This document shows positions 6,975 through 40,019 of a stretch of 49,160 nt of DNA, one piece after another. Under the pieces are notes generated by a model. That model saw only the letters and a program-made list of their open reading frames with translations, searched no databases and was not told the DNA's origin. Source of the DNA: Lachnospiraceae bacterium (GTDB taxonomy: Bacteria > Bacillota > Clostridia > Lachnospirales > Lachnospiraceae); assembly GCA_014799405.1 (NCBI GenBank), contig JAAVIA010000001.1, positions 1-49,160 of the forward strand, written 5' to 3'. Position 1 is the stretch's first letter. Every line of letters begins with the position of its first letter. A program made the translations under genes and the position numbers.

Positions 6975-7177
6975 GATGAGCAAAACGTGCCATTGCGAAA
7001 ATACAGTTGTACAATATAGACAATATCGTAAGCAAGGCATTGGGGAGCCGTCGGTACTTAGGTGTCGTATTTGGACACCTTATGTACCGTTACGTGCGAC
7101 ACATAGCGAAAGCGTGCCTTGCGATGATTTGTCTATATTATACAACGGATGTCTGCGAAAAATAAGTTTTGCTCATC
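6975..7177. repeat. Nested inverted-repeat element, copy B
   Basis: An imperfect palindrome whose outer arms are GATGAGCAAAAC (6975-6986) and GTTTTGCTCATC (7166-7177), with inner arms ACAATATAGACAA / TTGTCTATATTATAC and AAGCAAGGC / GCCTTGC. The tip carries module M2 (GCCGTCGGTACTTA, 7048-7061) opposite module M1 in reverse (GTACCGTTACGT ... AGCGAAAGCGTG, 7084-7116), closed by GGTGTC/GACACC. The outer arms differ from the other copies, and the GGCTGTCGCACTAAG terminus is absent. A 76-codon open frame across it is a by-product of the repeat, not a credible gene. It fills the gap between the AAA+ and decarboxylase genes. Confidence 0.8.
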
Positions 7178-7202
7178 TCTAGAGGTAAGGAGCATAATTA
7201 CA

Positions 7203-8549
7203 TTGGAAAAATATATTGTTAATGGCTTACAGGCATATATTGATGGACAAAACTTCCCATGGCACATGCCCGGGCATAAAAGAAAAGGGTTTAACTTTAA
7301 GGGCAGACATGTGAATGTAAGGTCGGTTATATCTGAGGTTTATGGAATGGATGTAACGGAGGTTTATGGTCTTGATGACTTACATATGCCAGAGGGAATG
7401 ATAGACAAGTCACAGAAGGAGCTTGCAGGGGTGTATAACACATTTGCAAGCTATTATCTTGTTAATGGGGCTACTTGCGGAATTATGACGGCAATTGCGG
7501 CTACTCATGCAAAAAAGCTTATCGTGGCAAAAAACTGTCACAAGTCCGTTATAAATACAGTACAGCTTTTAGGGCTTGAGGCTGTTTACATAGAGCCCGA
7601 GAGGCTTGAAATAGTGTGCGGTGAAGACGGCGGACATAAAAGTGAAATTTATGGTTCAATTGATATGGGTGAGCTTGAAGCAATATGTGCAAAGCAGGAT
7701 GATATCGGGGCAATGGTTATTACAAGTCCTACATATGAGGGAATAATATCCGATATTTACTCTATAAGTAAAATACTTCATCGTTACGGAATCCTGCTTA
7801 TTGTGGATGAGGCTCACGGCGCTCATCTGCCGTTTATGTATAAGAATGACGGGTTAAGCGCTATACCATATGCGGACCTTGTCGTACAGAGCCTTCATAA
7901 GACGCTTCCTGCCATGACGCAGACGGCGTTGCTGCATGTTATAAATCCGCTGTTGGACAAGGCGGTACAAAAATATAAATCCATATTTATGTCATCCTCG
8001 CCCTCCTATGTTATGCTTTCCAGCATGGAGCTTGCGGTGGATTGGGCCTGCTCTTATGATTATGGGGGCTACCTTGATGCTTTGGCGGATTTTAGGCAAA
8101 GGGCGGCGGGGCTTAAAAATATTGTATTGTTTCCTGAAAGCTTGAAAAATAGGGACATAGCATATGACAGTACACGCATCGTTTTTTGCACAAAGGAATA
8201 CGGAACAATTGTTGAGGAAAAGCTTAGACAGCATGGCATAATATGCGAGATGTCAGGAATACATCATATTGTGCTAATATCAACACCCTTTGACAGCGTG
8301 GAGGATTTTGATTATTTATATGAAGTATTAAAAGACTTGGACAAAGATACACAGGTAACACCCGGGTACAGTGAAATAGAATGGGAAACTGAGAAGATAA
8401 AGGGGCTTCTGGGAACCTTTGCGGAAGATGATATATATGTGTATCCGCCGGGGAGCTGTATAGCTGTTAAGGGTGAAGTTATAGAGCAGGAGGATGTGGA
8501 TATTTTGCTTTCCTACTATGAGAGTGGTAAAATAATCAGGGGATTGTAA
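7203..8549 (+). CDS. Orn/Lys/Arg decarboxylase-family PLP enzyme
   Basis: 448 aa from TTG 7203, chosen because AAGGAG lies upstream. An in-frame ATG at 7149 lies inside the palindrome and has no ribosome site. Family signatures are WHMPGHKRKG near the N-terminus, YGLDDLHMPEG, the NGATCGI substrate/PLP loop, IVDEAHGAHLPF (PLP-binding Asp) and SLHKTLPAMTQTA with the Schiff-base lysine at about residue 233. The short YaaO/SpeA-like subgroup includes Arg and Lys decarboxylases acting in polyamine synthesis as well as uncharacterised members. The substrate cannot be assigned here. No other polyamine gene is adjacent. Confidence 0.85.
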   Translation: MEKYIVNGLQAYIDGQNFPWHMPGHKRKGFNFKGRHVNVRSVISEVYGMDVTEVYGLDDLHMPEGMIDKSQKELAGVYNTFASYYLVNGATCGIMTAIAATHAKKLIVAKNCHKSVINTVQLLGLEAVYIEPERLEIVCGEDGGHKSEIYGSIDMGELEAICAKQDDIGAMVITSPTYEGIISDIYSISKILHRYGILLIVDEAHGAHLPFMYKNDGLSAIPYADLVVQSLHKTLPAMTQTALLHVINPLLDKAVQKYKSIFMSSSPSYVMLSSMELAVDWACSYDYGGYLDALADFRQRAAGLKNIVLFPESLKNRDIAYDSTRIVFCTKEYGTIVEEKLRQHGIICEMSGIHHIVLISTPFDSVEDFDYLYEVLKDLDKDTQVTPGYSEIEWETEKIKGLLGTFAEDDIYVYPPGSCIAVKGEVIEQEDVDILLSYYESGKIIRGL

Positions 8550-8593
8550 ATATTTTGCAGTTATTTGACAATTAATACTATACGAGGTTTCAT

Positions 8594-9922
8594 ATGAAAG
8601 AATTAACAAAGGGAAAACCATGGAAAGTTATTTTGCTTTTTGCAATACCGATCATGTGCAGAAGTGTTTTTCAGCAGTTTTACAATTTTGTGGACAGTAA
8701 AATAGTAAGTACATATATAAGTACAAATGCATTTGCCGCAGTAGGCGCAACAACTGTTGTGTCAAATACAATAATAGGCTTTTTGAATGGATTTACACAG
8801 GGCTTTGCAATTTCCGTAGCCAACAGCTATGGTGCAAGGGATTACAAAAGAATGAGAAAGTATATTGCAGGTGCGATTGTACTTGCATTTTCCATTGCGG
8901 TAATCCTTACGGCAGTAAGTCATTTCTTTATTGACGATTTGCTTAGAATGCTTGCAACTCCTGAGGATATCATGGAGGATGCCCTTGCATATGTGAAGAT
9001 AATTTTGTCCGGCATTATATTTTCTGCCGTTTACAATTTGTGTGCAAACATACTGATGTCGGTGGGTGACAGCAAAACGCCGCTTTACTGCCTTATTGCG
9101 GCGCTTGTTATAAACACCGGACTTGATTTTTTATTTGTAAAGGGTTTATCCATGGGAATAAAGGGTGCCGCTTATGCAACTATAATTTCACAGGCAATTG
9201 CAGGAGGGCTCTGCGTGATATATATTTTCGCAAGGTTTAAAGAGATTATACCGTCCAAAGAAGATTGGAGACTTGAGAAAAAGCAGTATCCGGAGCTTTT
9301 CACAACCGGTCTTTCCATGGGACTTATGGGCTGTATAGTAAATGTGGGAAGCATCGTGCTTCAAAATGCCATAAACAAGCTTGGCACTGCATATGTTGCG
9401 GCACATACGGCCGCAAGAAAGCTGTTTGACATGCTCACAATATTGATGTTCTCAATAGCAGTTGCAATCACCACATATGTGAGCCAAAATATGGGTGCCG
9501 GAAAATTTGCACGTGTGAGGCAGGGAATCCGTCAGGCAATATATATGACTATGATTACAACGACATTTCTTATTTTTGTGTGCTATACCTTTGGCGAGGG
9601 AATTTTGAAATGGATAACAAGCACGGATGATGCGACTATTATATCGGCAGCAGTTATGTACATGAAGATAAGCATTGTATTTTTCTATGTGCTTGGACCG
9701 CTTCTTATATTGCGGTGTGCACTTCAGGGAATGGGGCATAAGATAATGCCGCTTTTTTCAAGCGGAATGGAGATGGTTGTGAAAATTGTGTCTGCCAATT
9801 TGATTGTTCCCGTGTTTGCATATAAGGGCGTTGCCTTTACCGAACCTATAAGCTGGATACTTATGACAATCATGCTTACCGTGTCTTACATGATAGCAAG
9901 GCCTAAAGGTGACGGGGAGTAA
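8594..9922 (+). CDS. MATE family efflux transporter
   Basis: A 442-aa polytopic membrane protein with two homologous halves of about six helices. The N-terminal half has the family pattern LLFAIPIMCRSVFQQFYNFVDS and GFLNGFTQGFAISVANSYGA. The second half repeats it (NVGSIVLQNAINKLG and FSIAVAITTYVSQNMGAGK). MATE proteins export cationic drugs or metabolites using Na+ or H+ gradients. The ribosome site is ACGAGGTTTCAT before ATG 8594. It lies 44 bp behind the decarboxylase and could export a product of it, but that is speculation. The substrate is unknown. Confidence 0.92.
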   Translation: MKELTKGKPWKVILLFAIPIMCRSVFQQFYNFVDSKIVSTYISTNAFAAVGATTVVSNTIIGFLNGFTQGFAISVANSYGARDYKRMRKYIAGAIVLAFSIAVILTAVSHFFIDDLLRMLATPEDIMEDALAYVKIILSGIIFSAVYNLCANILMSVGDSKTPLYCLIAALVINTGLDFLFVKGLSMGIKGAAYATIISQAIAGGLCVIYIFARFKEIIPSKEDWRLEKKQYPELFTTGLSMGLMGCIVNVGSIVLQNAINKLGTAYVAAHTAARKLFDMLTILMFSIAVAITTYVSQNMGAGKFARVRQGIRQAIYMTMITTTFLIFVCYTFGEGILKWITSTDDATIISAAVMYMKISIVFFYVLGPLLILRCALQGMGHKIMPLFSSGMEMVVKIVSANLIVPVFAYKGVAFTEPISWILMTIMLTVSYMIARPKGDGE

Positions 9923-9954
9923 GAAACGAAAAACATATGTGGAAGCTGGCGGAG

Positions 9955-10275
9955 TTAATTGTGTCTGTGTTCCTTCAGTCGGTTTATTAAATTAAGGATT
10001 AGAAGCAGATCCTCATCCGACAGCTCATTCATGCCGTCTACTGCCTTTTGTATTAAGCCCGGATAGTGTGCCTGCTCTGTAAAAAATTCAGCGGGAGTAA
10101 TATTAAAATAAGCACAAATGGAAAGAAATTCATTCATAGGAGGTAAACATTTGCCGGAGGAGATATTATAAATATATCCCCGACTGTGTCCTAAATCGTA
10201 ACTCATCTGATATTCTGATACGCCTTTTAACAGGCGTAATTCTGTAATTCTATCCCTGATAAAAGAATTGTCCAT
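9955..10275 (-). CDS. XRE-family helix-turn-helix regulator
   Basis: 106 aa on the minus strand, start ATG 10275 behind GAGGTGATT. The N-terminal HTH (IRDRITELRLLKGVSEYQMSYDLGHSRGYIYNISSGKCLPP) matches the Cro/C1 fold: helix 2 around VSEYQMSYDLG, recognition helix around SRGYIYNI. The C-terminal 35 residues are helical (LSDEDLLLILNLINRL) and probably dimerise. It is convergent with the MATE gene and divergent from the MBOAT gene, so it may regulate its own promoter region. The target is unknown. Confidence 0.85.
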   Translation of the reverse strand: MDNSFIRDRITELRLLKGVSEYQMSYDLGHSRGYIYNISSGKCLPPMNEFLSICAYFNITPAEFFTEQAHYPGLIQKAVDGMNELSDEDLLLILNLINRLKEHRHN

Positions 10276-10350
10276 ACAATCACCTCACAACTTTGAGCGT
10301 CAGCTTATTTCGGATTTGTCTTTGGCATATATAAATCAAAATTCTATGGG

Positions 10351-10398
10351 TTGACATCGTGTCTCGGTGGCTTTCTCACCGGACATACTATATGTCAA
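10351..10398. repeat. Compound stem-loop upstream of the MBOAT gene
   Basis: TTGACAT (10351-10357) pairs with ATGTCAA (10392-10398). Inside it, TGTC pairs with GACA and CGGTG pairs with CACCG around a 7-nt loop. No T-run follows, so it is more likely an operator or cruciform than a terminator. It could be a target of the divergent XRE regulator. Confidence 0.5.
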
Positions 10399-10479
10399 GT
10401 TTTGCCCTCAAAATCTGATATAATTTCTATGATAATAAAACATTAGCATTATGCGTCAAAAGAAATATGTTGTTTTTTG

Positions 10480-10508
10480 TTGAAAAGACAATATATATAT
10501 GTTATAGT
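10480..10508 (+). promoter_or_regulatory. Promoter of the MBOAT/DHHW pair
   Basis: -35 TTGAAA (10480-10485) and -10 TATAGT (10503-10508) with a 17-bp spacer, leaving a leader of about 130 nt before the gene. Confidence 0.6.
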
Positions 10509-10645
10509 CTAAGTGAAAATGAGATAAAAGAAAAATATAACTAGGAATACAGGACAGAAACAAGGATTTTTGGACTTTGTTAGAAAGTTGTGGATAACAA
10601 AATTGAAAAGCTCAGGGGCTTGTAAATAATGTGTGAGGAAGTATT

Positions 10646-12115
10646 ATGGTTTTCACTAGTAGTATATTTGTTTATGTGTTTATGCCGCTTTTTTTGCTAC
10701 TATATTTGTTTGTGAATAAATTATCCGAGAAATTTTATTTTTTTAAGAAAATTCGTATAATAGATATTTTATGTTTAATAGCAAGCTTTATATTTTATAT
10801 GTGGGCTGGCTCTTTTAATATAGTTTTTTTGTTGTATATGATTATTTCTGCATATATTTTGGGTGTTATAATTAACAAAACCAAAGATATTTCGTTTAAT
10901 ATGGGAATTAAATATATTATTCAGTTTTTCAGAGAATTGTCAGTCGGACGTTTTTTTGTTGCTGTAGGTGTGGTGGCTGCTGTTTTTCTTTTGTACAGGT
11001 ATAAATATTTTGGCTTAACATTAATAACGTTTCCTAATATTTCAAATATAATGACACCCATAGGGGTTTCTTTTTTGATATTTTCGCTGATTTCCTATCT
11101 TGTTGATGTATATAAAGGAGCCGATGCCGGAAACTTAATAGATGTGGCTCTTTATATAAGTTTTTTTCCAAAGGTAATTTCCGGACCAATTATACTTTGG
11201 AAGGAATTTTCTGAAAAATTAAGAACAAGAGAAGTATCAATAGAAAAAATTTCATCTGGCATTTGTAAGCTTGTCTATGGTTTTGCAAAAAAAGCAATCA
11301 TTGCAGATTATTTTGGATCTGTTATTTTGTTGATTCAAAAAACTAACGGAACTGTCATAGATATTCCGACTGCATGGCTCATTTGTATATTATATATGTT
11401 TCAGATATATTATGATTTTGCGGGTTATTCGGACATTGCAATTGGGTTATCGAAAATTATGGGTATGGAATTTGATGAAAATTTTAATTTTCCGTATATA
11501 TCGACTTCCATATCCGAGTTTTGGAGAAGATGGCATATATCACTTGGGGCATGGCTCAGAAAGTATGTTTATATTCCGTTAGGAGGAAATAGAAAAGGAA
11601 AAAGGCGTATGTTGCTAAATTTATTTATTGTAATGGTGGTTTCAGGAATTTGGCATGGAGAGGGAGTGGCATATTTATTGTGGGGCGTTATGCACGGAAT
11701 ATGTATTGTGTTTGAAAAGGTTATGGGCAATAAAAATTGGTATAAAAAAATTCCTGATATTCTTAAGTGGCTTCTGACGATGTTTATTGTGATGATGGGA
11801 TGGGAGGTGTTTCGACTGGGAAATTTTTCCAGTGTAATAGAATTTTTGGGGATTTTGGTGGGAATCAATAGGGCGGAAACGGTTACCTGTACTTATCAGT
11901 ATTATATAACTGTTAAGTTGATTGTAATGCTGATTATTGCTTTTACAGGAGCTGTAATATTCGGTTTGATTTCTAAAATGGAATTGTTTGGGAAACTGAA
12001 AAACAAACCTCCTGTTTTAATTGGAGAGTATATTATATCTATTGCCCTTTTTATAGTTGCATGTGTTTGCATTACCAATGGAACATACAGTCCATTTATT
12101 TATTTTCAGTATTAG
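10646..12115 (+). CDS. MBOAT family O-acyltransferase (AlgI/DltB-like)
   Basis: A 489-aa multi-spanning membrane protein. It has the AlgI-type signatures FFPKVISGPI, YYDFAGYSDIAIGLSKIMG, FWRRWHISLGAWLRKYVYIP with PLGGNRKG, and SGIWHGEGVAYLLWGVMHG containing the conserved catalytic-region histidines. These proteins move acyl (usually acetyl) groups across the membrane to an extracytoplasmic acceptor that modifies exopolysaccharide or wall polymers. The partner gene starts 22 bp downstream, a usual arrangement. Codon use is noticeably more AT-rich than in the flanking genes, which may point to horizontal acquisition. Confidence 0.92.
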   Translation: MVFTSSIFVYVFMPLFLLLYLFVNKLSEKFYFFKKIRIIDILCLIASFIFYMWAGSFNIVFLLYMIISAYILGVIINKTKDISFNMGIKYIIQFFRELSVGRFFVAVGVVAAVFLLYRYKYFGLTLITFPNISNIMTPIGVSFLIFSLISYLVDVYKGADAGNLIDVALYISFFPKVISGPIILWKEFSEKLRTREVSIEKISSGICKLVYGFAKKAIIADYFGSVILLIQKTNGTVIDIPTAWLICILYMFQIYYDFAGYSDIAIGLSKIMGMEFDENFNFPYISTSISEFWRRWHISLGAWLRKYVYIPLGGNRKGKRRMLLNLFIVMVVSGIWHGEGVAYLLWGVMHGICIVFEKVMGNKNWYKKIPDILKWLLTMFIVMMGWEVFRLGNFSSVIEFLGILVGINRAETVTCTYQYYITVKLIVMLIIAFTGAVIFGLISKMELFGKLKNKPPVLIGEYIISIALFIVACVCITNGTYSPFIYFQY

Positions 12116-12137
12116 AAGTAGGAGTGATTAAGATTTT

Positions 12138-13553: not shown

Positions 13554-13604
13554 AGAGGAAAAACAAATAAGTGTCGCTGTCAAAACGGCTAAAGGGTTTT
13601 AAAT

Positions 13605-13646
13605 AAGAGCTTTCGGAGACTACGGGGGATCTGGCAGCTCTTTTTA
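13605..13646 (+). terminator. Probable terminator after the DHHW gene
   Basis: AAGAGCT (13605-13611) pairs with AGCTCTT (13636-13642), a 24-nt G-rich loop lies between, and a T-run overlaps and follows the stem. Confidence 0.6.
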
Positions 13647-13779
13647 TATGCTTGTTATAACTTTAAATTTGTTTTTTAATATAAGTTAAACAAAAGAATT
13701 TACTGATTATTGAAGATATTGAAAACAGAATCAACTTATAATATTGCCCTCGATGGGTGCAAAATTATAAAATAGCGTT

Positions 13780-13819
13780 AGAGCATACAGACATTGAAAA
13801 ATCTATATGCTCTATTTTT
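13780..13819 (+). terminator. Second terminator-like hairpin
   Basis: AGAGCATA (13780-13787) pairs with TATGCTCT (13806-13813), followed by ATTTTT. Confidence 0.6.
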
Positions 13820-15185: not shown

Positions 15186-15210
15186 ATAATCATAGAAAGG
15201 AATTATGGAA

Positions 15211-16295: not shown

Positions 16296-18752
16296 ATGGA
16301 TAATAATTTTAATAACGGCATGCCACAGCAGGTAACTCCAAATCCTGAAATGGCACAGCCGGATATGAATCAGCAGATGTATGGGCAGCAGGTACAGCTG
16401 GAGATTCCACAGACCGATACAGTTCAACCTGCACCATATGGAATGCCTCAGCCTGATATGAACCAGCAGATGTATGGACAGCAGGTACAACCCGACATGA
16501 ATCAGCAGATGTACGGACAGCAGGTACAATCTGACATGAATCAGCAGATGTATGGACAGCAGGCACAATCTGGTGTGAGCCAGCAGATGCCTCAGGCAGT
16601 ACCTGTAAATGGAGGAAATGGAGGTGGAAAGCCGCCGAAGCCTCCAAAGGTTAAGAAGCCTATGACAGGCGGAACGCTTGCAGGAATTATATGCGGTGGA
16701 ATTGCTGCCGTTGCCGCAATCGTCTGTGGTGTTATATTTATACCGAAGCTTTTTAAGACTCCGAAAGAGGTCGTTATAGATGCCTTTGAAGCAACACTTA
16801 ATACCAACACGGAAAACGTTTATTATGATGATGTTTTGGGATTATCGGATATTCAAAACAAGTTTCGGGAGAGCGGCGGAACGGTTCATATGGATTTTGG
16901 TATTGCTGACGTTGAGCTTGAGGATGTCAACATGAGCTTTGTGGTTGACGAGGTTTATAATCCTGTTGATAAGCTGGTTGAATATTCCATGGAGATGATT
17001 GCATGTGATGACAGGATTATTAAAACTAACTTCTTTGGCGATGAGGTAAATACCTATGTGGAGTTTGAGGATATCATTGACGGTTATTTTATGATTCCTA
17101 ATGATGACCCTATGGGAGCCTTGTGCAGCTCGTTTTTAGGTGACGAACTGGATGCTACAGAGGTAACAGCCATGAGCGGTCTTTTACAGCTTGATTACTT
17201 TGGCTATAATTCTTCTGATGAAAATACGATGAATATTAATTCAGGATATGTTAATGCCGTTGAGGAGCTGTGGGATAAAGCAGAATTTGAAAAGCAGGGA
17301 AACGCTAAGATTGATGTAAATGGAAATACGGTTACTGCAAAGGAATATACGGTTACCTTAAAGGAAGAAAACATTGAAAGTGCATTTGTTTCCATTTTTG
17401 ACGGTGTAAAACAGACATATGTAGACGACCCTTCCCTTCTTGAAGATTCGGGAATGGATTATGCAACCTTTGACGCAACCATAACACAGGTTCAGGCAAT
17501 GATACCTTCACTTGTAAGCGGAGATTTTGTTGTAAAGGTATATATAAAGGATAAAAAGGTAGTTAAGGTTACATCCGCAGACAAAATTTCACTTTACGGC
17601 GTGAGTATGTCATATGACTTTTTCCTTGATATGGATGACAATGATGTTCAGGGTGCATTGAATTTTAATGTTATGGAAGAGGGAATGGGTATTTCTTTCG
17701 AGGCGCATGATTTGAAAGGAAATGCAAATGGCAAGGTGGTAATGTCAGCAGATGGAGAGCGGGTAGAGATGGTATATAACTCCACAGTCGATGATACCGA
17801 TGCTGCCAAAAATGTTACATTTAATTTTGACATTCTTGAGGATGGAGACAATATTTTTTCTGTTGCTGGCGAAAAGAAATTTAATAAAGCAGACAACTCA
17901 TTTAGTGCAAACATAACAATGGGTGATGGTATAGAAGATTTGAGATTTAATGTTTCCGGAAAGCTTACAGATATAAATAAGGGAATATCCTTTAAGTTTG
18001 TTGTTGATGAGATAACGGTTGTCTCAGATGAAGATACCGTGAAAATGAATATGGAATATGTCATCGATACATCTGCAAATACGCCAGGAAAATATGACAG
18101 CAGCAAGAAGGTGTATGAGCTTGCAACGCTTACGGAAACCGAATTTGAGAGTATTTTAGAAGAAAATGACAGCCTCATTATAAATTGGTTGCAGAAGCTT
18201 ATGGAGAATGAATTTTTTATATTTATGAATTCTACTACTATACCGGAGCCTCCTATGGGTGAGCCTTTGAATGGAGAGCCAAATGAGCCTGTAGCGACAA
18301 ATCCTCAGGGTGATATGATATTAGAGGATGGAGATGTCAAGGTTCGCATTCTTGAAAGTCTGCCGGGGCTTAAATGTACGTACGAGGGAGTTTATTTTAT
18401 AACTTTTGAGGATGATAATTATAATTATGAGGTAGACTATTCCATTTATACAGATATGACGCCAGAGGTGGCCGTAGAGTTGTACTTCTACCCGGATGAG
18501 GAGACTGCAAATGATGAGGGAGCTGTGGACGAGGTTGATTCCGAGCTTACTTTATCGGATGGCTCTAAAGTTTGTTATTCATTTTCAAAAAGAGGAACGG
18601 ATACAAACAGTTATGACTGTCAGGCTATTTATGCCAAGGATTTAGGCAATGGAGCATGTATTGTTGCTGAAATATATGTATATGGACATGATGTAACCTC
18701 CGCAGAGCTTGGAGAGGCATTGTTAGACAAGAATTTTGAGCGTATTCAGTAA
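16296..18752 (+). CDS. Repeat-rich membrane-anchored extracellular protein
   Basis: 818 aa, ATG behind AAAGGAGAG. Residues about 20-105 are Gln/Met/Tyr-rich with 13-residue repeats of the form PDMNQQMYGQQVQ. A Gly/Pro/Lys linker (KPPKPPKVKKP) follows, then one transmembrane segment near residues 124-150 (TLAGIICGGIAAVAAIVCGV). The remaining 660 residues are acidic and beta-rich, with no cysteine motif or known catalytic signature. A cytoplasmic low-complexity N-terminus and an extracellular domain are likely, since the preceding KKP stretch is on the inner side. The layout resembles Lachnospiraceae proteins of unknown function that carry a zinc-ribbon or Q-rich head before one TM span. Function unknown. 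It lies 14 bp after buk. Confidence 0.8.
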   Translation: MDNNFNNGMPQQVTPNPEMAQPDMNQQMYGQQVQLEIPQTDTVQPAPYGMPQPDMNQQMYGQQVQPDMNQQMYGQQVQSDMNQQMYGQQAQSGVSQQMPQAVPVNGGNGGGKPPKPPKVKKPMTGGTLAGIICGGIAAVAAIVCGVIFIPKLFKTPKEVVIDAFEATLNTNTENVYYDDVLGLSDIQNKFRESGGTVHMDFGIADVELEDVNMSFVVDEVYNPVDKLVEYSMEMIACDDRIIKTNFFGDEVNTYVEFEDIIDGYFMIPNDDPMGALCSSFLGDELDATEVTAMSGLLQLDYFGYNSSDENTMNINSGYVNAVEELWDKAEFEKQGNAKIDVNGNTVTAKEYTVTLKEENIESAFVSIFDGVKQTYVDDPSLLEDSGMDYATFDATITQVQAMIPSLVSGDFVVKVYIKDKKVVKVTSADKISLYGVSMSYDFFLDMDDNDVQGALNFNVMEEGMGISFEAHDLKGNANGKVVMSADGERVEMVYNSTVDDTDAAKNVTFNFDILEDGDNIFSVAGEKKFNKADNSFSANITMGDGIEDLRFNVSGKLTDINKGISFKFVVDEITVVSDEDTVKMNMEYVIDTSANTPGKYDSSKKVYELATLTETEFESILEENDSLIINWLQKLMENEFFIFMNSTTIPEPPMGEPLNGEPNEPVATNPQGDMILEDGDVKVRILESLPGLKCTYEGVYFITFEDDNYNYEVDYSIYTDMTPEVAVELYFYPDEETANDEGAVDEVDSELTLSDGSKVCYSFSKRGTDTNSYDCQAIYAKDLGNGACIVAEIYVYGHDVTSAELGEALLDKNFERIQ
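16359..16606 (+). repeat. 39-bp in-frame tandem repeat in the gene
   Basis: Units begin at about 16359 (separate from the rest) and, contiguously, at 16452, 16491, 16530 and 16569, the last degenerate. Each 39-bp unit encodes 13 residues. Near-identity between units suggests recent slippage or unequal recombination, so the copy number may vary between strains. Confidence 0.85.
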
Positions 18753-18765: not shown

Positions 18766-19542
18766 ATGAGTTTTGTTGAGATTAAAGGAAAAAAAATCGG
18801 CGAGGGAAGTCCGAAAATCTGTGTGCCCGTTATGGGGCACACAGATGAAGAAATATTACGGCAAATAAACATGATAAATGCTCTGCAAAATAATCAGATT
18901 ATTGATATGGTCGAAGTAAGAGCTGATTATTTTCAAGGACTTGGAATCCCTGACGAGGTAGAAAGGCTTATGACGGCAGTACAAAGAGAGCTGTCGGAAA
19001 AAATAGTGCTTTTTACCATAAGAAGCGAAAAAGAGGGCGGTAAGAAGCTGTCATCTGAAATTACGGATATTGACGGGATAAACAGGCTGGTCATAGCAAA
19101 TAAGCTTGCGGATATTGTGGATGTTGAGCTTTCTGACGGAATTCCATCAAAAAGGGAGCTTGTAGAACTGGCGCATGATAATGGCGTTAAAATCATTATG
19201 TCGTATCATAATTTTGACACAACCCCTGAGCAGGAATTCATGACAGGGAAGCTGGAAGCCATGAAAAATATGGGCGCTGACATAATAAAAATAGCTGTCA
19301 TGCCAAGAAACATACATGATGTATACAGACTTATGGAAGCAGCCTTATACACAAAAGAAAAGTTTAATGTACCCATTGTTGCTATTTCTATGGGAGCATT
19401 TGGTGCAATAACAAGAGTATCGGGAGCGCTTTACGGAAGCGACATAACCTTTGGGGCACTGGAGCAGGCTTCAGCGCCGGGTCAGATACCTGTGTCCGAT
19501 TTAAAAAGGATGATGGATGATATTGAACGATACTGCATGTAA
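18766..19542 (+). CDS. aroD: Type I 3-dehydroquinate dehydratase
   Basis: 258 aa of the class I aldolase-type dehydroquinase, which forms a Schiff base and converts 3-dehydroquinate to 3-dehydroshikimate in the shikimate pathway. Signatures are KICVPVMG at the N-terminus, VEVRADYFQ (conserved Glu/Arg), IIMSYHNFDTTP with the catalytic His, IIKIAVMP with the Schiff-base lysine and SMGAFGAITRVSGALYGSDITF near the end. The length is normal for the family. No other aromatic amino-acid gene is adjacent. The stop codon overlaps the first bases of a long inverted repeat. Confidence 0.95.
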   Translation: MSFVEIKGKKIGEGSPKICVPVMGHTDEEILRQINMINALQNNQIIDMVEVRADYFQGLGIPDEVERLMTAVQRELSEKIVLFTIRSEKEGGKKLSSEITDIDGINRLVIANKLADIVDVELSDGIPSKRELVELAHDNGVKIIMSYHNFDTTPEQEFMTGKLEAMKNMGADIIKIAVMPRNIHDVYRLMEAALYTKEKFNVPIVAISMGAFGAITRVSGALYGSDITFGALEQASAPGQIPVSDLKRMMDDIERYCM

Positions 19543-19947
19543 AATATAGGGCTGTCGCACGAAAGTATGAGCGTACGGCTCGCCTGCGACTGTCACTGCT
19601 GCTCTATCTACACATAAAACACGCTTTCGCTCGTCTCAGACGTAGCGGTACTAAGAGCTCGGATTTCAGTTGTATAGGTACATGGCAAATAAAAACCGTT
19701 TGAAGACGTCGGTACTTAAATTGCCGGTCTAAGATTCCTTGATATGGGGGTATCTTAAACCGGCAATTTTTAGTACCGTTACGTCGGAGACGAGCGAAAG
19801 CGTGTTTTTATATGCCATGTACCTATGGAACGAAACCCGAGCTTAAGTACCGACGTCTTCAAACGGTTTTATGTGTAGATAGAGCAGCATGTAGCAGCCG
19901 CAGGCGAGCCATACACTCAAATTTTCGTGCGATAGCCCTATATTTTT
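19541..19947. repeat. Nested inverted-repeat element, copy A (about 400 bp)
   Basis: The whole gap between two convergent genes is one long imperfect palindrome. The outer arms are AAAATATAGGGCTGTCGCAC (from 19541) and its complement ending at 19947. The next arms are CTCGCCTGCG...GCTCTATCTACACAT and the mirror at 19871-19912. Then comes module M1 (19621-19654), M2 (19693-19719), a core hairpin AATTGCCGG...CCGGCAATT (about 19718-19770), M1 reversed (19770-19807) and M2 reversed (19842-19870). Thus an M2-core-M1' unit sits inside an M1...M2' unit in opposite orientation. M2 and M2' are identical over 27 bp, and M1 and M1' differ at about two of 36 positions. No coding frame is credible. Confidence 0.9.
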
Positions 19948-26938: not shown

Positions 26939-27163
26939 GAAAAGAGGCTGTCACACTAAGGAATCACTGTATCGTATGGCACACTGGCGGTTGTCATTTG
27001 CTGCTATATATGCCAAAAACGCGCTTTCGCTCTTTACAGACGTAGTGGTGCTAAGAATTGCCTGTACGGATACAGCCTATACAGTAACGAAAAACCGTTG
27101 GAAGACGTCGGCACTTAAATTGCCGGCTTAAGGTAGAATATCTTAAGCCGGCAATTTTTAGTG
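26939..27163. repeat. Inverted-repeat element, copy C (right arm lost)
   Basis: It begins AAAAGAGGCTGTCACACTAAGG like the other copies (terminus GGCTGTCACACTAAG). Next come a CTGCTGCTATATATGCC segment shared in type with copies A and E, then M1 (CGCTTTCGCTC...GACGTAGTGGTGCTAA, about 27021-27054), then M2 (CCGTTGGAAGACGTCGG, 27095-27111) and an excellent core hairpin, AATTGCCGGCTTAAG (27118-27132) with CTTAAGCCGGCAATT (27142-27156). Only the first bases of the reversed M1 (TTAGTG) follow, and the matching outer arms are missing. It looks like a deletion derivative lying just upstream of the SpoIID-like gene. Confidence 0.8.
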
Positions 27164-28551: not shown

Positions 28552-28562
28552 TAGGAAAATGA

Positions 28563-28624
28563 AAGAGGCTGTCGCAGTAAGGATTTAAAGAGTATATTTC
28601 CTTACCTGCGGCAGGCCTTTTTTA
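28563..28624. terminator. Solo GGCTGTCGCAGTAAGG hairpin (bidirectional terminator)
   Basis: GAGGCTGTCGCAGTAAGGA pairs with TCCTTACCTGCGGCAGGCC, followed by a T-run; A-rich sequence precedes it. It lies between the convergent SpoIIQ-like and Fur-family genes and could stop transcription from both sides. Its left arm is the same sequence that begins the long elements C and D. Confidence 0.85.
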
Positions 28625-31340: not shown

Positions 31341-31647
31341 AAAGAGGCTGTTGCAGTAAGGATTTGAGGTTTATGATATGCTCCATTCTAGATAGACAAG
31401 TGAAATAATAAAAACTTGTCACTTAGAAGGGAGCATATTTATGTGTCAAAGAAAATATTTGATGAAGAGAAACGGCGGCAGGTAAAACAGAGGGATGTAG
31501 CGGTACTAAAAATTGCCAGCTTAAGACATTCCTATATAAGAATATCTTGAGCTGGCAATTTAAGTACCGACGTCCCCAAACGGTTTTTAGTTACTATATA
31601 AGCCGTGTCAGACAGGCAATTTTTAGTATCGCTATATCCTCAAACGA
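31341..31647. repeat. Inverted-repeat element, copy D (rearranged)
   Basis: It starts AAAGAGGCTGTTGCAGTAAGG, nearly identical to the solo hairpin at 28563. A different hairpin (31376-31438) follows. Then comes a worn M1 (GATGTAGCGGTACTAA, 31494-31509) and a core hairpin with AATTGCCAGCTTAAG (31510-31524) pairing to CTTGAGCTGGCAATT (31546-31560). Reversed M2 follows (TAAGTACCGACGTCCCCAAACGG, 31561-31583), and then a second GGCAATTTTTAGTATCGC piece like a reversed core/M1 end that reaches the stop codon of the phosphorylase gene. No matching right-hand outer arm is seen. It lies between convergent genes. Confidence 0.78.
31376..31438 (+). mobile_element. Hairpin resembling the end of an insertion sequence, inside copy D
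   Basis: ATATGCTCC...GACAAGT pairs with ACTTGTC...GGAGCATAT in a near-perfect 63-bp stem-loop. Right after it an open frame with the start VSKKIFDEEKRRQVKQ (GTG 31443) runs into the M1 sequence and stops after about 35 codons. This looks like the left end plus first codons of a transposase gene, cut off by the repeat. The IS family is not identified. Confidence 0.4.
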
Positions 31648-34131: not shown

Positions 34132-34358
34132 GTAATATACCTTCCTTTCATAAAACACTGCCAACATTATATAATAAAAATGCCCAAAACACAACAAAAA
34201 TTGTTGGGATTATGGGTATTATTTCACAAAAAAAACAGGGCTGACAAAACAGGCTGTAAAAGGTTTGCATTGACTATACGATGTTGTAATATTCGGTACA
34301 ATATGATAAAATCAGCAAATATGGAATGGTTGATGTTCAAGGTGAGAGGAGAAATCAT

Positions 34359-35609
34359 ATGATTTTATATATAGATCCCGGAACGGGAAGCATGCTGTTT
34401 ACAATTCTTATCGGTGTTATTGGAACAGCGGTTTATTCCCTGCGGATGCTTTTCATAAAAATACATTTTAAACTTACAGGTGGCAAGGTTACGGTAAATC
34501 AAAATAAAATACCATTTGTGATTTTTTCAGATAATAAGCGGTACTGGTCAGTATTTGAGCCGATTTGCCGTGAAATGGACAGGCGTGGAAAGGACATTTT
34601 ATATATAACGGCATCTCCTGACGATCCGGTGCTTGAATGCCCGTACTCACATGTTACGGCGGAATGTATTGAAAATAATAATAAGCTTTTTACAAGATTA
34701 AACTTTTTGAATGCTACAATTGTTTTGTCCACCACACCAGGGCTTGAGGTCTATCAGTGGAAACGCTCCCCTGATGTGGAGTATTATGTGCATATTCCTC
34801 ATACGGCGGGTACGCTTATTCTTTATAGGATGTTTGGAATTGACTATTATGATGCAGTTTTGCTTTCAGGGAATTTTCAGGAAAGGGATGTACGTAATCT
34901 TGAGAAGCTCCGTTCCCTGCCGGAGAAGGAGCTTGTAAAAGTTGGTATTCCGTATATGGATGAGATGGCAAAACGGATTGAAAAAAGCGGATTGGCATTT
35001 GAACATGAACGAACTGTATTACTGGCACCATCATGGGGAAGTAGTGCCATATTTGCCGTGTATGGGGGCAGAATTATTGAGGTGCTTTTGAAAACGGGAT
35101 ACCATGTAATTGTCCGTCCTCACCCGCAGTCTCTTACGTCAGAGAAGAATATGATTGAAAAGCTGATGGAGGAATATCCGGAGCAGGAGAAGCTTGAGTG
35201 GAACAGGGATACGGATAATTTTGAGGTTTTACGCCGTGCGGATATACTTATTTCTGATTTTTCGGGTGTTGTGTTTGAGTTTGCCTTAGTATATGATAAG
35301 CCGATTATTTATACGAATCCTGATTTTAACCTTGACCCTTATGATGCATGGTGGCTTGACAATCCTGTTTTGACAACTACCGCATTTTTTCCAAAGCTGG
35401 GCTGTGAGCTTAATGAGGATAATATGGAATCGCTAAAGGAGCTTATTGACTCCTGTATAGATGATGAGAAATATGCTGAGGGAAGATGTGAGGTAAAGAA
35501 GGAAGCATGGGCATATTTTGGTGAGGGATGCAGCCGTACTGTTGACTACTTGGTAAAAAAGTACGAAGAAATAACCGCTTGTGATAAAGAGGAGAAGGGG
35601 ATATCATGA
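34359..35609 (+). CDS. CDP-glycerol glycerophosphotransferase family protein (TagF/TagB-like)
   Basis: 416 aa from ATG 34359 (GAGAGGAGAAATCAT). A short N-terminal hydrophobic segment is followed by a GT-B-like fold. Family marks are VHIPHTAGTLILY, VLLAPSWGSSAIF, VIVRPHPQS and the C-terminal ADILISDFSGVVFEFALVYDKPIIY (donor-binding SDxSG). These enzymes transfer glycerol-phosphate from CDP-glycerol to teichoic-acid-like polymers on the cytoplasmic face. The stop codon overlaps an ATG (ATGA) that starts a broken yidC-like fragment, so an intact partner gene probably once followed directly. The YidC-sulfatase gene further on fits the same envelope pathway. Confidence 0.85.
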   Translation: MILYIDPGTGSMLFTILIGVIGTAVYSLRMLFIKIHFKLTGGKVTVNQNKIPFVIFSDNKRYWSVFEPICREMDRRGKDILYITASPDDPVLECPYSHVTAECIENNNKLFTRLNFLNATIVLSTTPGLEVYQWKRSPDVEYYVHIPHTAGTLILYRMFGIDYYDAVLLSGNFQERDVRNLEKLRSLPEKELVKVGIPYMDEMAKRIEKSGLAFEHERTVLLAPSWGSSAIFAVYGGRIIEVLLKTGYHVIVRPHPQSLTSEKNMIEKLMEEYPEQEKLEWNRDTDNFEVLRRADILISDFSGVVFEFALVYDKPIIYTNPDFNLDPYDAWWLDNPVLTTTAFFPKLGCELNEDNMESLKELIDSCIDDEKYAEGRCEVKKEAWAYFGEGCSRTVDYLVKKYEEITACDKEEKGIS

Positions 35610-35731
35610 CTTTTTTTGAATTATATATTTCTTGCTGTTAGGTCCGTTAAAGTTGTTTTTGAGATTATATATGAGGTTGCAACAGGTATGTTCAAGAGTG
35701 CTTTCAAGAATTGTGATAGTGGTAGGTTTTA
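35606..35731 (+). pseudogene. 5' fragment of a YidC-like gene, frameshifted
   Basis: It begins ATGACTTTTTTTGAA, like the intact gene at 36822 (ATGACTTTTTTTCAA), and stays alignable for about 95 bp. Conceptual translation with two indels gives MTFFELYI..LLGPLKLFFEIIYEVATGMFKS against MTFFQIIYTLFIGPLKLFFEFIFEIANRF. Without correction the frame stops after 11 codons. The pieces GGTCCGTTAAAGTTGTTTTT and GGACCACTGAAGCTGTTCTT show the match, with one T missing. It overlaps the stop of the TagF-like gene by four bases. The divergence is more than a fresh duplication would show. Confidence 0.75.
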
Positions 35732-35800
35732 AGGGAGATACCAAGATATATCAATAGTTTAACTAAATATTAAAAGCAATAATATGGAAAGAGGTTTATT

Positions 35801-36745
35801 ATGAAAATCATATCATTTGACAAAATTAAAGAATTGAATATTTCTCCATTGACCTGTTATAAGTGGGTATCCGATGCAATTGTATTAAAAAAAGAAGCAT
35901 TCCTTCCTGCAAAAATCAGCCTAAAGCCACATATACAGGGTGTGTTTTACAATACAATGCCGGTTATTATTCCATCTGCAAATATAGGAGGGGTAAAACT
36001 TGTTACCCGGTACCCGGAAAGAAAGCCGAGCTTAGATAGCGAAATTCTTCTTTATAATCTTGAGACAGGCGAGAATATAGCACTTATGGATGGCAATTGG
36101 ATTACAGCTATGCGTACCGGTGCGGTAGCTGCTCATTCAGTCAAGCTTTTTGCAGTTGAAGATTTTAAGGAAATAGGAATTATTGGGCTGGGTAACACGG
36201 CAAGGGCGACGCTTAAAGTTTTATTGGCAATTTACCGGGAACGGGAGCTGGTTATAAAACTTAAAACATATAAAGATCAGCATGAAAATTTTGCACAAGA
36301 ATTTTCCGGGTTCAGCAATGTTAAATTTGTGTATTGTGATACCTATGAAAGGACGATAGAAAACTGTGATGTAATTCTTTCTGCAGTGACAGTTTTTGAG
36401 AACGATATCTGTCCGGATGACTGTTTTAAGGAAGGTGTACTAGTAGTTCCGGTTCATACCAGAGGATTTACTAATTGTGATTTGTTTTTTGATAAGGTTT
36501 TTGCAGATGATACGAACCATGTAAAAGGTTTCAAATACTTTGAACAATACAAATATTTTGCCGAGGTTTCCGATGTTGTCAACGGAATGAAGCCTGGCAG
36601 AGAAAGCAACAAGGAAAGAATTCTTGCCTATAATATCGGTATTGCATTGCATGATATCAATTTTGCAGGAAAAATCTATAAGCTGGTAAAAGATACCTGT
36701 GAGGAGATTTCTCTAAATGCACCTGTAGATAAGTTCTGGGTCTGA
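35801..36745 (+). CDS. Ornithine cyclodeaminase / mu-crystallin family protein
   Basis: 314 aa, ATG behind GAAAGAGG. The NAD-binding Rossmann motif reads EIGIIGLGNTARATLKVL near residue 125, preceded by the family pattern GGVKLVTRYPERKPSLDSEILLYN (substrate Lys and Arg region) and WITAMRTGAVAAHSVKLF. The family includes ornithine cyclodeaminase, alanine dehydrogenase, ketimine reductases and siderophore-precursor (SbnB-like) synthases, and the reaction here cannot be named. It interrupts the likely ancestral pair of TagF-like and YidC-like genes, lying between the broken yidC fragment and the intact fusion gene. Confidence 0.85.
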   Translation: MKIISFDKIKELNISPLTCYKWVSDAIVLKKEAFLPAKISLKPHIQGVFYNTMPVIIPSANIGGVKLVTRYPERKPSLDSEILLYNLETGENIALMDGNWITAMRTGAVAAHSVKLFAVEDFKEIGIIGLGNTARATLKVLLAIYRERELVIKLKTYKDQHENFAQEFSGFSNVKFVYCDTYERTIENCDVILSAVTVFENDICPDDCFKEGVLVVPVHTRGFTNCDLFFDKVFADDTNHVKGFKYFEQYKYFAEVSDVVNGMKPGRESNKERILAYNIGIALHDINFAGKIYKLVKDTCEEISLNAPVDKFWV

Positions 36746-36775
36746 TAAGTGGATGCAAGTTGTTACAAATTATTC

Positions 36776-36803
36776 TTGACGAGTATAAATTTTCAAATAC
36801 AAT
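36776..36803 (+). promoter_or_regulatory. Promoter of the YidC-sulfatase gene
   Basis: -35 TTGACG (36776-36781), 16-bp spacer, -10 TACAAT (36798-36803), just after the ornithine-cyclodeaminase-like gene. Confidence 0.6.
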
Positions 36804-36821
36804 GATGGAGGAATAAATTAA

Positions 36822-39629
36822 ATGACTTTTTTTCAAATAATATATACATTATTCATCGGACCACTGAAGCTGTTCTTTGAGTTTATATTTGAGATTGCCA
36901 ACAGATTTACTTCACATCAGGGGCTTTCGATTATCTTTTTGAGCCTCATTATGAATATACTTGTACTGCCTCTTTACAGACGTGCGGATGCCATGCAGGA
37001 GCAGGCGAGGGATATTGATGCAAAGCTTAGAGATGGTGTGACACATATAAAGAAAACATTTTCCGGCGATGAGAAAATGATGATGCTTCAGACATACTAT
37101 AGGCAGAATAACTATAAACCGACAGACGCTTTGAAGGGCTCTGTGTCACTATTGCTTCAAATTCCGTTTTTTATTGCGGCATATCAGTTTTTGTCGCATT
37201 TAGAAAGTCTTACCGGTGTATCATTAGGACCCATAGTGGATTTAAGCAAGCCTGACGGAATGCTTGTTGTTGGCGAATTTACTATAAACCTGCTGCCTGT
37301 CATTATGACATCCATAAATATAATATCATGCTCTCTTTATTTAAAGGGCTTTCCTGCAAAGACTAAGGTGCAGCTTTATGGCATGGCTCTGTTTTTTCTT
37401 GTATTTTTATATGGCTCACCATCGGGTCTTGTATTTTACTGGACGCTTAACAATGTGTTTTCGCTCGTTAAGACAATTTTTTATAAGCTGAAAAATCCTA
37501 AGAAAGTGCTCCGTGTGATGCTGGCACTTATCGGCACGCCGCTGCTTATATATTCAGCCTTTATATACAACACGCCTTCACTTAAGAAAAAGGTGTTTCT
37601 TATTTTGGTGGCATTGCTTTTTATATTGCCGCTGATGCTCAATATAATTAAATCAAGTGTAAATATAAATAAGATATCAGGAAAATTGGAAAATCTGTTT
37701 GGTAATGTGCGGGTTTCGGAGTATGGTCAACCAAAATTATTTTTTGTGGGAACCATATTTCTTACCGTGCTTGTGGGATTGCTTATACCGTCAAATTTTA
37801 TAGCAGCATCTCCACAGGAGTTTGTCGATATTACATATTTTCATAGTCCTATTTGGTATGTCGTCGCCTCTCTCGTAATGGCAGCAGGCACATTTTTAGT
37901 TTGGCTTCGTGTGTTCTACCTGCTGGCAAGCCCAAATGGAAAGGTGTTTTTTGAAAGGCTTGTCTGGATTATGTGCGGACTTATGCTTGCCAACTACATG
38001 TTTTTTGGCACGGAGCTTGGAAGCGTTTCCTCCACATTGCAGTACAGCAGTAGTATGGCTTTTTCAAGAAAAGAACAGCTTATAAATATGCTGGTGCTTA
38101 TGGCGGTAGCTCTGATTATGTACATTTTAATATTGAAATTTTACCGCATGGCAGTTTCGGTGCTACTCATTGCATCCATTGCTCTTGGTGTCATGTCGGT
38201 TGCTAATATTTCCACCATCAAATCCTCTGTGGATAAGGTTGTTGTAGAAAATGTTTCTGATGAGTTGACCTTCAGAATGAGTACGTCAGGTCAAAATGTT
38301 GTGGTTATTATGCTTGACAGGGGAATGGGAGAATACATACCATATCTTTTTAATGAAAAACCGGAACTTATGCAGCAGTTTGCAGGTTTTACATACTATC
38401 CCAATACAATATCCTTTGGCAACTCTACGAATTTTGGGGCACCGACTCTGCTGGGAGGATATGAATACACCCCTGTAGAAATGAACAAAAGGGCAGACGA
38501 GCCTTTGGCTGACAAGCACAATGAAGCAATAAAGATAATGCCGGTTTTATTTTCAGATAACGGATATGAAGTTACTGTCTGCGACCCTGTTTATGTAAAT
38601 TATCAGTGGATTTCTGATACATCAATTTTTAATGAGTATCCGAATATCAATGCATGTATTACAAAGGGAAGGTTCAGCTCACCGCAGACAAAGCAGCAGA
38701 AAATAGATAATAATGAACGCAATTTTTTCTGTTTCAGCATTATGAAAACAATGCCACTTATTGTACAGCCTACAATATATGCCAATGGTACATATAATCA
38801 AAATCAGTCTGAGAGCAGTGGAATACAGACCGCCGATGGCATACATAAGGCGGAGGGATTAAGCTCGTTATTTATGGACCCTTATAATGTACTTGACAGT
38901 ATGCCTTTCATGACGGCTGTGACAGAGGAGAATGTAAACACATTTTTATATATGACAAATAATGTTACCCATGAGCCTATGCTGCTTCAGGAGCCTGAAT
39001 ATATTCCTGCGGAAGAAGTAGACAACACAAAATATGATGCGGAAAATATGGACCGGTTTACGGTTGACGGCAGGACAATGAAGGTGGAGGATTATATGCA
39101 GATGGCCCATTATCAGTCAAACATGGCGGCACTTCTCAAGCTTGGCGAATGGTTTGACTTTTTAAGAGAGCAGAATATATATGATAATACAAAAATAATC
39201 ATAGTTTCAGACCACGGAAGACATCTTGGACATTTTGATGAGCTGGTGATGGGCGATCAGGATGTTTTTAAAAATGTAGAAATGTATTATCCTCTGTTGC
39301 TTGTTAAAGATTTTAACAGTACAGAGTTTACCGTGTCGGAGGAGTTTATGACTACGGCGGATGTTCCGACCATAGCAGTAAAGGATTTGATTGATAATCC
39401 GGTTAATCCGTTTACGGGAAAAGTAATTACTAATTCCGAGAAAACAGCACATGAACAGTATATTATTATGTCGGACAAAAATGATACGAATGTTAATAAC
39501 GGCAATACCTTCCTACCTGCAAGATGGGCGAGGGTAAAGGATGATTTGTGGAATAAAGAAAATTGGGAATTTTATGACGAGGAAATTGTGCTCGATGAAT
39601 ATGCATTCCCGACAGACACCGTAAGATAA
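36822..39629 (+). CDS. YidC/Oxa1 insertase domain fused to a sulfatase/LtaS-like domain
   Basis: 935 aa. Residues 1 to about 240 are a YidC/Oxa1-type domain: FFEFIFEIANRFTSHQGLSIIFLSL, NILVLPLYRRADAMQEQARD, LKGSVSLLLQIPFFIAAYQFL and FLYGSPSGLVFYWTLNNVFSLV are its core helices. About six further transmembrane segments fill residues 245-470. Residues about 490-860 form an extracellular alkaline-phosphatase/sulfatase-type domain with VVVIMLDRGMGEYIPYLF (metal Asp near 497), FGNSTNFGAPTLLGGYEYTP (likely nucleophile Thr/Ser region) and IIIVSDHGRHLG (metal DH near 797). LtaS-like enzymes transfer phosphoglycerol to surface glycans. The nearby TagF-like gene suggests a teichoic-acid-like pathway. 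What a fused insertase domain does is unclear. Confidence 0.88.
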   Translation: MTFFQIIYTLFIGPLKLFFEFIFEIANRFTSHQGLSIIFLSLIMNILVLPLYRRADAMQEQARDIDAKLRDGVTHIKKTFSGDEKMMMLQTYYRQNNYKPTDALKGSVSLLLQIPFFIAAYQFLSHLESLTGVSLGPIVDLSKPDGMLVVGEFTINLLPVIMTSINIISCSLYLKGFPAKTKVQLYGMALFFLVFLYGSPSGLVFYWTLNNVFSLVKTIFYKLKNPKKVLRVMLALIGTPLLIYSAFIYNTPSLKKKVFLILVALLFILPLMLNIIKSSVNINKISGKLENLFGNVRVSEYGQPKLFFVGTIFLTVLVGLLIPSNFIAASPQEFVDITYFHSPIWYVVASLVMAAGTFLVWLRVFYLLASPNGKVFFERLVWIMCGLMLANYMFFGTELGSVSSTLQYSSSMAFSRKEQLINMLVLMAVALIMYILILKFYRMAVSVLLIASIALGVMSVANISTIKSSVDKVVVENVSDELTFRMSTSGQNVVVIMLDRGMGEYIPYLFNEKPELMQQFAGFTYYPNTISFGNSTNFGAPTLLGGYEYTPVEMNKRADEPLADKHNEAIKIMPVLFSDNGYEVTVCDPVYVNYQWISDTSIFNEYPNINACITKGRFSSPQTKQQKIDNNERNFFCFSIMKTMPLIVQPTIYANGTYNQNQSESSGIQTADGIHKAEGLSSLFMDPYNVLDSMPFMTAVTEENVNTFLYMTNNVTHEPMLLQEPEYIPAEEVDNTKYDAENMDRFTVDGRTMKVEDYMQMAHYQSNMAALLKLGEWFDFLREQNIYDNTKIIIVSDHGRHLGHFDELVMGDQDVFKNVEMYYPLLLVKDFNSTEFTVSEEFMTTADVPTIAVKDLIDNPVNPFTGKVITNSEKTAHEQYIIMSDKNDTNVNNGNTFLPARWARVKDDLWNKENWEFYDEEIVLDEYAFPTDTVR

Positions 39630-40019
39630 AACTTAAAAGGGGTTGCACCAAGGAACGGGCTTTCCTGCGGCGGCCCCACTGTTGCTATATGCTCAGAAAA
39701 CCGTTTGAAGACGTCGGTACTTGAGCTGGGGGCTCATACGTCTATGGCATATACAAATACGCTTTCGCTCGTTTCCGACGTAACGGATACTAAAAATTGC
39801 CGGCTTTAAGGTATTCTTATATAAAATAGGAATACCTTAAAGCCGGCAATTTAAGTACCGACGTCTTCAAACGATTTGTATATGCCATAGATGCATGAGC
39901 CCCAGCTCTTAGTACCGCTACGTCGGAAACGAGCGAAAGTGTGTTTTCTGAGCATATAGCAACAGGAGCCCGCCGCAGGAAAGCCCGTTCCTTAATGTCA
40001 CAGCCGCCCCTTTTAAATT
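39630..40019. repeat. Nested inverted-repeat element, copy E (about 390 bp)
   Basis: It fills the gap between convergent genes. The outer arms are AAAAGGGG...CAAGGAACGGGC (from 39636) with GCCCGTTCCTTAATGTCACA...CCCCTTTT (to 40015). The right arm read backwards contains GGCTGTGACATTAAGG, the family terminus. The next arms are TGTTGCTATATGCTCAGAAAA and its complement (39939-39966). Then come M2 (39699-39720), a unique stem GAGCTGGGGGCTCAT...TATGGCATATACAAAT with its mirror (39873-39908), M1 (39759-39796), the core AATTGCCGGCTTTAAGG (39797-39813) with CCTTAAAGCCGGCAATT (39835-39851), M2 reversed (39852-39873) and M1 reversed (39909-39944). The inner unit of about 115 bp is opposite in orientation to the outer unit. 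Confidence 0.9.

Follow-up and report, generated by a model that had tools for sequence, protein, structure and literature searches.

Five intergenic loci in a 49,160-nucleotide stretch of a Lachnospiraceae bacterium genome (GenBank assembly GCA_014799405.1, contig JAAVIA010000001.1, positions 1 to 49,160; hereafter the window) carry two sequence modules, M1 and M2, which combine into a unit with the order M1-core-M2' (the M unit). Our analyses make it probable, on balance, that these loci belong to a group of non-autonomous, non-coding elements of the miniature inverted-repeat transposable element (MITE) class that is spread across the Lachnospiraceae, that the hairpin core formed by the M unit is selected as an RNA fold, and that the elements are moved in trans by transposases of insertion sequences (IS).

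Modelled fold of the M unit and probable selection on RNA

M2 (GACGT-CGGTACT) can pair with M1' (AGTACCG-YT-ACGTC), and an alignment of 31 units folds into the helices P1 and P2 and a small hairpin, AGC-GAAA-GCG, which together would form a three-way junction with a GNRA-capped arm. M1 and M2 make up the opposite strands of a single imperfect helix in this modelled fold and are not two transposon ends, and the asymmetry of the palindrome consists of conserved internal loops and the small side hairpin. The initial annotation had thus delimited the unit correctly as M1-core-M2', but had taken M1 and M2 for the related ends of an element, and this part must be given up, as the two pair across the hairpin as its structured core. 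A k-turn was weighed as an alternative for the internal loop and gave way to the three-way junction, and the fold is not known to belong to an established ribozyme class.

Loops, wobble pattern, and covariation together indicate that the M hairpin is likely selected as RNA. Among 77 distinct units, compensatory changes are found in 27 of the 32 model pairs, 92.7% of the cells pair, and the covariation score is 0.563, as compared to 0.169 for shuffles and no more than 0.090 for slid structures; because the 77-unit alignment was fitted to the model, the covariation shows a fold and not its chemistry. Of 119 distinct model matches, 110 have a G-initial loop between unchanged GC closing pairs, and every one of these loops is a GNRA tetraloop (GAAA 48, GAGA 43, GCAA 7, GGGA 5, GCGA 5, GGAA 2). 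Among the other nine, four are GNRA loops with changed, still-pairing closing bases (first unit of L143, L185, L210, L233), one match is truncated (L175), and one is weak and probably a chance match (L135), which brings the tetraloop to 114 of 117 complete units. The wobble pairs were counted on the M2-to-M1' strand. In eight elements of the TAG class described below, aligned with MAFFT, the hairpin has 32 GU against 4 AC and the flanks have 2 against 10 (13/4 and 2/7 when counted by columns); the p-value of 8e-6 on cells is optimistic, as the copies are related. A MAFFT alignment of the 31 units from the genome of the window gave GU 42 / AC 6, the part of P1 that lies 13–30 bp from the core gave GT 67 / AC 31 in 118 units, and the GU/AC counts in the model-fitted set were 20/2 for P1, 29/17 for P2a, 16/6 for P2d, and 1/1 for P3.

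Several observations weigh against selection as RNA. The last three of the nine remaining loops, in units of one subfamily (second unit of L143, L207, L230), are AAAA. In the same 118 units, the far part of P1 leans the opposite way (GT 145 / AC 189), and the GT/AC ratio of 85/68 near the core is not significant. Helix P2b/c has GU 4 / AC 22 in the model-fitted alignment, the single pair at columns 45/339 fails to form in 20 of 76 cases, and the outer stems of the elements in the genome of the window are without wobble bias, both in elements with a single M unit (GT 65 / AC 59) and in those with two units (GT 49 / AC 68). Since the wobble pattern is found in the core and the inner P1, and the outer stems are neutral, the RNA constraint likely sits on the core and the inner P1 and not on the outer stems.

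These observations lead to the strongest competing explanation, namely that the fold matters as DNA, with palindromes maintained by hairpin template switching or by an enzyme that reads an extruded hairpin, and with no contribution of RNA. This would be in line with the similar GT and AC counts in the outer stems, with the excess of AC in P2b/c, with stems that vary between copies and yet remain complementary, and with the insertion at hairpin tips that is described below. We nevertheless consider it unlikely, as it does not account for the nearly invariant GNRA loop, for a wobble bias that is present within the hairpin and absent from the flanks of the same eight elements, or for the bias in P1 at 13–30 bp. 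As to a use of single-stranded DNA of the lagging strand, as in IS200/IS605-type elements with strand bias relative to replication, the even orientation of singles relative to tandem genes (46:46) is a weak proxy that speaks at most slightly against it. With selection on RNA, the transcript from M2 to M1' would fold and may serve the element itself, by protein binding or transcript processing, and not the neighboring genes.

Elements in the window

The five loci were read directly from the sequence and then scanned with M1 and M2 patterns, and both approaches confirmed M1/M2-like sequence at all of them. Two of them are complete, with four modules each in mutually inverse order, M1-M2-M1'-M2' at 19541–19947 and M2-M1-M2'-M1' at 39630–40019. 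The features are as follows:

6971..7181, + strand: 211-bp TAG-class mobile element with terminal inverted repeats (TIRs) at 6971–6986 and 7166–7181 and the M hairpin between them
7020..7130, sense strand +: single M unit of this element, with divergent core (L206 1526–1636, 66.2 bits)
7105..7114, + strand: GNRA hairpin AGC-GAAA-GCG of this element, from sequence reading
19541..19947, − strand: double element flanked by convergent genes; sense strand − for the outer unit and + for the inner unit
19620..19654, + strand: M1 of this double, predicted to pair with M2' at 19843–19869
19693..19719, + strand: M2 of its inner unit, predicted to pair with M1' at 19770–19804; best covariance-model match, 131.7 bits
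19770..19804, − strand: M1' of its inner unit, with GNRA hairpin
19843..19869, − strand: M2' of its outer unit
26939..27163, + strand: truncated double with M1 at 27020–27054 and M2 at 27092–27118; the tip is kept, the M1' half is lost
31341..31647, no strand assigned: degraded locus with GGCTGTTGCAGTAAGG hairpin end, remnant reading frame, M1 at 31495–31509, and M2' at 31560–31586
39630..40019, + strand: double element of inverse order to 19541, with M2 at 39698–39724, M1 at 39758–39792, M2' at 39851–39877, and M1' at 39909–39943

The degraded locus holds one M1...M2' unit and remnants, located behind a GGCTGTTGCAG hairpin end. The frame remnant of this locus, at 31430–31490 behind the GGCTGTTGCAGTAAGG end, was recognized by eye (VSKKIFDEEKRRQ...) and could represent the first part of a transposase gene of the GGCTGTCGCA class that has since been lost.

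Mobility

Mobility is well supported for the TAG class, and we infer it for the other classes. The window element of this class is bounded by the TIRs TAGGGATGAGCAAAAC and TAGAGATGAGCAAAAC, and copies from another genus (G247) are 88–89% identical to it over about 150 of 171 bases. Exact target-site duplications (TSDs) flank 4 of 17 TAG-class elements (8 bp in L207 and L269, 9 bp in L265, 10 bp in L271), as compared to exact 8–10 bp duplications in 0 of 272 mismatched left-right flank pairs, and a near-duplication with 8 of 9 matching bases was found in L284. Three of the four elements with TSD contain the M unit. The fourth, L269 (G015:C21:5570–6914), is a 1345-bp element with the same TIR and an 8-bp TSD, and its open reading frame (ORF) matches the transposase domain DDE_Tnp_1 (PF01609) at 2.9e-13; the best NCBIfam match, IS1182, is far below the cut-off. 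Bare forms of the TAG class also exist, with lengths of 51–53 bp and 68–78 bp, and two elements (L290, L278) look by eye like deletion products of the M-bearing form. As is typical for MITEs, the elements are short and without coding capacity (211 bp in the TAG class, reading frames of at most 75 codons in the spacers of outward-facing pairs), which agrees with the earlier statement that they encode no protein; TIRs combined with TSDs were found in the TAG class, the one class examined for them. We propose that transposases of resident IS elements would move the copies in trans.

The initial annotation had suggested a search for a transposase gene linked to M1/M2 ends. One TIR class has a relative with a DDE transposase ORF, and no transposase was recognized among ORFs adjoining the copies (40 clusters of ORFs recurring beside copies listed, 9 representatives read by eye, no search aimed at RAYT). 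To the arguments against our reading, it has to be added that no transposase was found for the GGCTGTCGCAC class or other TIR classes, that the single L269 DDE ORF looks incomplete at its start, that exact TSDs are absent in 13 of the 17 TAG-class elements, including the one in the window, and that the following site comparison is a small sample.

The five window sites were compared with those of up to four relatives (G011, G035, G001, G015), and filled as well as element-free or differently occupied sites, as expected of MITEs, were found at 6975, 19541, 31341, and 39630. There is no element at site 6975 in G015 and G001, nor at site 31341 in G011. At site 39630, short hairpins of other kinds are found in G035 and G001, and the G015 contig breaks there. 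Site 19541 is occupied by a bare hairpin in G001; G015 has this hairpin with M units located in its tip, G035 has a nested set, and G011 has no similar sequence. At site 26939, G035 has another hairpin (GGGGCTGTCATAATAAGG) in the tip of an M unit, G015 has a nested set, and G011 has an ordinary-looking terminator. For this small number of sites, the comparisons reveal turnover as well as insertion into hairpin tips.

Outer stems, nesting, and close pairs

Among the copies listed for the genome of the window, most lie within GGCTGTCGCAC-like stems. Both outer stems, GGCTGTCGCAC and TAGnnATGAGCAAAAC, are also found as bare hairpins that lack M1 and M2, and GGCTGTCGCACTAAG, at up to two mismatches, has 110 sites (56 forward and 54 reverse; controls 1 and 3), some of which are bare hairpins. 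Two hairpins in the window are of this kind or resemble terminators:

48820..48877, no strand assigned: bare GGGCTGTCGCACTAAG hairpin without M unit, of the same outer-stem family
28562..28620, no strand assigned: bare GGCTGTCGCAGTAAGG hairpin, terminator-like with a T run after it, limits by eye

By eye, A/T runs are found at bare GGCTGTCGCAC hairpins and at some doubles, and several doubles are without such runs. In other genera, the M units are located in elements with different boundaries.

Copies occur as single units or as two nested units of opposite orientation. In the complete doubles of the genome of the window, the spacing is nearly fixed and the orientation of the inner unit is opposite to that of the outer unit in 15 of 15 cases, many of which are related copies and not 15 independent events. 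A copy from a related species (L154) has three nested modules that alternate M1-M2-M1 on one arm. The same copy (G015 C28, at the site of window 26939) has an extra hairpin of about 60 nt inside an M1' arm, beside the GNRA loop of one unit. Such arrangements could arise if one hairpin inserts into the tip of another, and insertions would survive between genes and in terminator hairpins, where harm is least.

Neighboring units less than 600 bp apart form 23 pairs, 19 of which face outward (one place is counted twice, L241 and L244), three face the same way forward (L224, L247, L260), and one backward (L160). The longest start-to-stop frame in the spacers of the outward-facing pairs has 75 codons. 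An autonomous element between paired units was considered and rejected, as inspection by eye, with no domain search made, suggested ordinary host genes in L137, L138, L245, L246, L248, and L249. In the close pairs of one genome (G107), the inner P1 is common to both units, and the outer P1 differs yet stays self-complementary (among 15 loci listed).

A more far-reaching idea, which we regard as improbable, takes the M unit itself for a structured RNA that is mobile and that might be a novel ribozyme or a substrate of a reverse transcriptase or an RNA-binding recombinase. It would enter hairpin tips in inverted orientation relative to the host hairpin and be carried along by unrelated transposon families throughout the Lachnospiraceae.

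Copy number and distribution

The genome of the window (G000; 2.80 Mb in 61 contigs) contains 50 M1 and 63 M2 sites at up to three mismatches, and reversed-pattern controls gave none, so that the sites are far more numerous than expected by chance. The description of the elements as dispersed, palindromic, directional, and non-coding is supported. The number of hundreds per genome that had been extrapolated from the window is not borne out: the covariance model R1, which was built from the 31-unit alignment and used for later model searches, detected at least 57 units at E≤0.01 (88 of 805 candidates scored), hence tens of copies. The draft assembly undercounts them, because seven contigs (C5, C19, C25, C42, C47, C58, C60) start inside copies, as the elements break the assembly. 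At E≤0.01, R1 matches 36 of 37 genomes of the genus (up to 88 candidates scored per genome), and, with stricter filters and scoring of 13 candidates in each genome, 82 of 250 family genomes, representing 81 of 249 genera, at E≤0.001. The fold is conserved between genera. A class-wide sample of 291 genomes, searched with stricter filters at E≤1e-5, gave matches in seven genomes, all of the same family, and none outside the Lachnospiraceae. Copies are abundant, with dozens in some genomes, and adjoin ordinary host genes.

Named carriers are Lachnospiraceae bacterium UBA7076, metagenome-assembled genomes (MAGs) of Clostridium sp. NALB, and one uncultured Lachnospiraceae MAG. The Lachnospira eligens ATCC 27750 plasmid NC_012780.1 carries five units; two plasmid records match the double element, both from Lachnospira eligens, and no plasmid matches the TAG class. 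Among phage records, four unannotated faecal contigs match, and units are present in all three that were fetched. Two pattern scans of viral contigs gave 0 matches. In line with the earlier remark that the repeats were not recognized as a named MITE, REP, or BIME family, the window has no match to an Rfam family at gathering score, and when 15 loci were searched at E≤5, a confident M unit was overlapped only by the animal miRNA models MIR1319 and mir-75, below gathering score (L039). In that locus (L039 1322–1659), an M unit is followed immediately downstream by an S10-Clostridia ribosomal leader (RF03136).

Gene context

In the genome of the window, 14 of the 15 doubles with both neighbors known are located between convergent genes, and the singles are in 5 convergent, 10 tandem, and 1 divergent context, with 1 of no known context. 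In a pooled set, convergent context applies to 19 of 26 doubles as compared to 28 of 137 singles (p = 3.6e-7); 19 more elements (1 double, 18 singles) had no called neighbor. This set comprised 182 elements, with 10 duplicates dropped; members of close pairs were counted separately, and the gene calls were simple ORF calls. As background, 6 of the 34 gene pairs of the window are convergent. Singles of the pooled set in tandem context are sense in 46 and antisense in 46 cases, and a host 3'-UTR element of fixed orientation was rejected on this ground. Because orientation is random, we read the convergent placement more as tolerance, with no downstream gene being harmed, than as function.

The placement of the doubles, the terminator-like bare hairpins that share the outer stem, and the retention of a hairpin at site 39630 in relatives could also be explained by intrinsic terminators of the host, or by 3' ends of its mRNAs, that mimic mobile elements, with doubles serving two convergent genes. 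This is improbable in our view, as singles are randomly oriented to tandem genes, and TIRs with TSDs, element-free sites in relatives, and the high identity of copies from another genus point to mobility. A conserved junction would be needless for a terminator, and bulky hairpins may simply be best tolerated between convergent genes.

As a further feature of the window, repeats at 39 or 93 bp spacing at 16346–16576, within the long ORF 16296–18752, code for a repeated MYGQQ-type motif (by eye).

Comparison with known systems

If the proposed MITE-class elements with an RNA-selected core are real, an RNA-like domain that stays intact in several unrelated classes of short transposons would provide a clear example of selection that acts on the transposon transcript and not on its ends only, and the comparison of wobble pairs in hairpin and flanks of the same element is a strand test that can be used for other MITEs.

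Repetitive extragenic palindromic (REP) sequences and bacterial interspersed mosaic elements (BIMEs) share with the described family that they are extragenic palindromes, and insertion of IS elements into palindromes is documented for IS1397, IS621, and ISKpn1 (PMC1525189). REPs are given a length of 21–65 bases (PMC1525189), REP/BIME palindromes are described as 20–40 bp long, and those mobilized by REP-associated tyrosine transposases (RAYTs) as carrying a GTAG or CGTC tag at one end (PMC3733652). Although the elements are palindromic and asymmetric and have paired units in inverse orientation, a RAYT-mobilized REP/BIME family is very improbable and was set aside on size and nesting, as M units exceed 100 nt, hold a junction, and are nested and not side by side, no transposase was recognized by eye among ORFs recurring beside copies, and the TAG class has TSDs of 8–10 bp.

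Parallels also exist with the mobile/repeat sequence candidates (MRSC) of a survey of structured RNAs in 50 genomes, which likewise have many copies, a covarying hairpin, and inconsistent gene orientation; MRSC-65-2, as described there, differs in that it consists of one long stem with UYCCGG repeat (PMC11109978). Of 3161 candidate structured RNAs from the human microbiome (Fremin and Bhatt, 2021; PMC8040213), 250 are palindromic, 230 of which are predicted terminators, and the palindromic examples are described as wholly or mostly from Bacteroidetes, in contrast to the M unit from Lachnospiraceae. No description of the M unit was found in the literature searched, including PMC11109978, PMC8040213, PMC1525189, and PMC10969869, with the supplements of the two structured-RNA surveys outside the comparison, so that an unnamed earlier listing is possible.

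The elements also resemble the prokaryotic MITEs with structured transcripts, such as ERIC, BOX, RUP, Correia, and QMITE, as they are short, non-coding, intergenic, and multi-copy, form long hairpins, and have TIRs in one class, and mutual insertion of elements has been reported for BOX, RUP, and SPRITE (PMC10969869). Unlike these, the family has one conserved, predicted three-way junction core in elements with unrelated TIRs and in roughly one in three of the genera sampled from the Lachnospiraceae, a regular inverse nesting, and, in one class, a strand-specific wobble bias in the hairpin.

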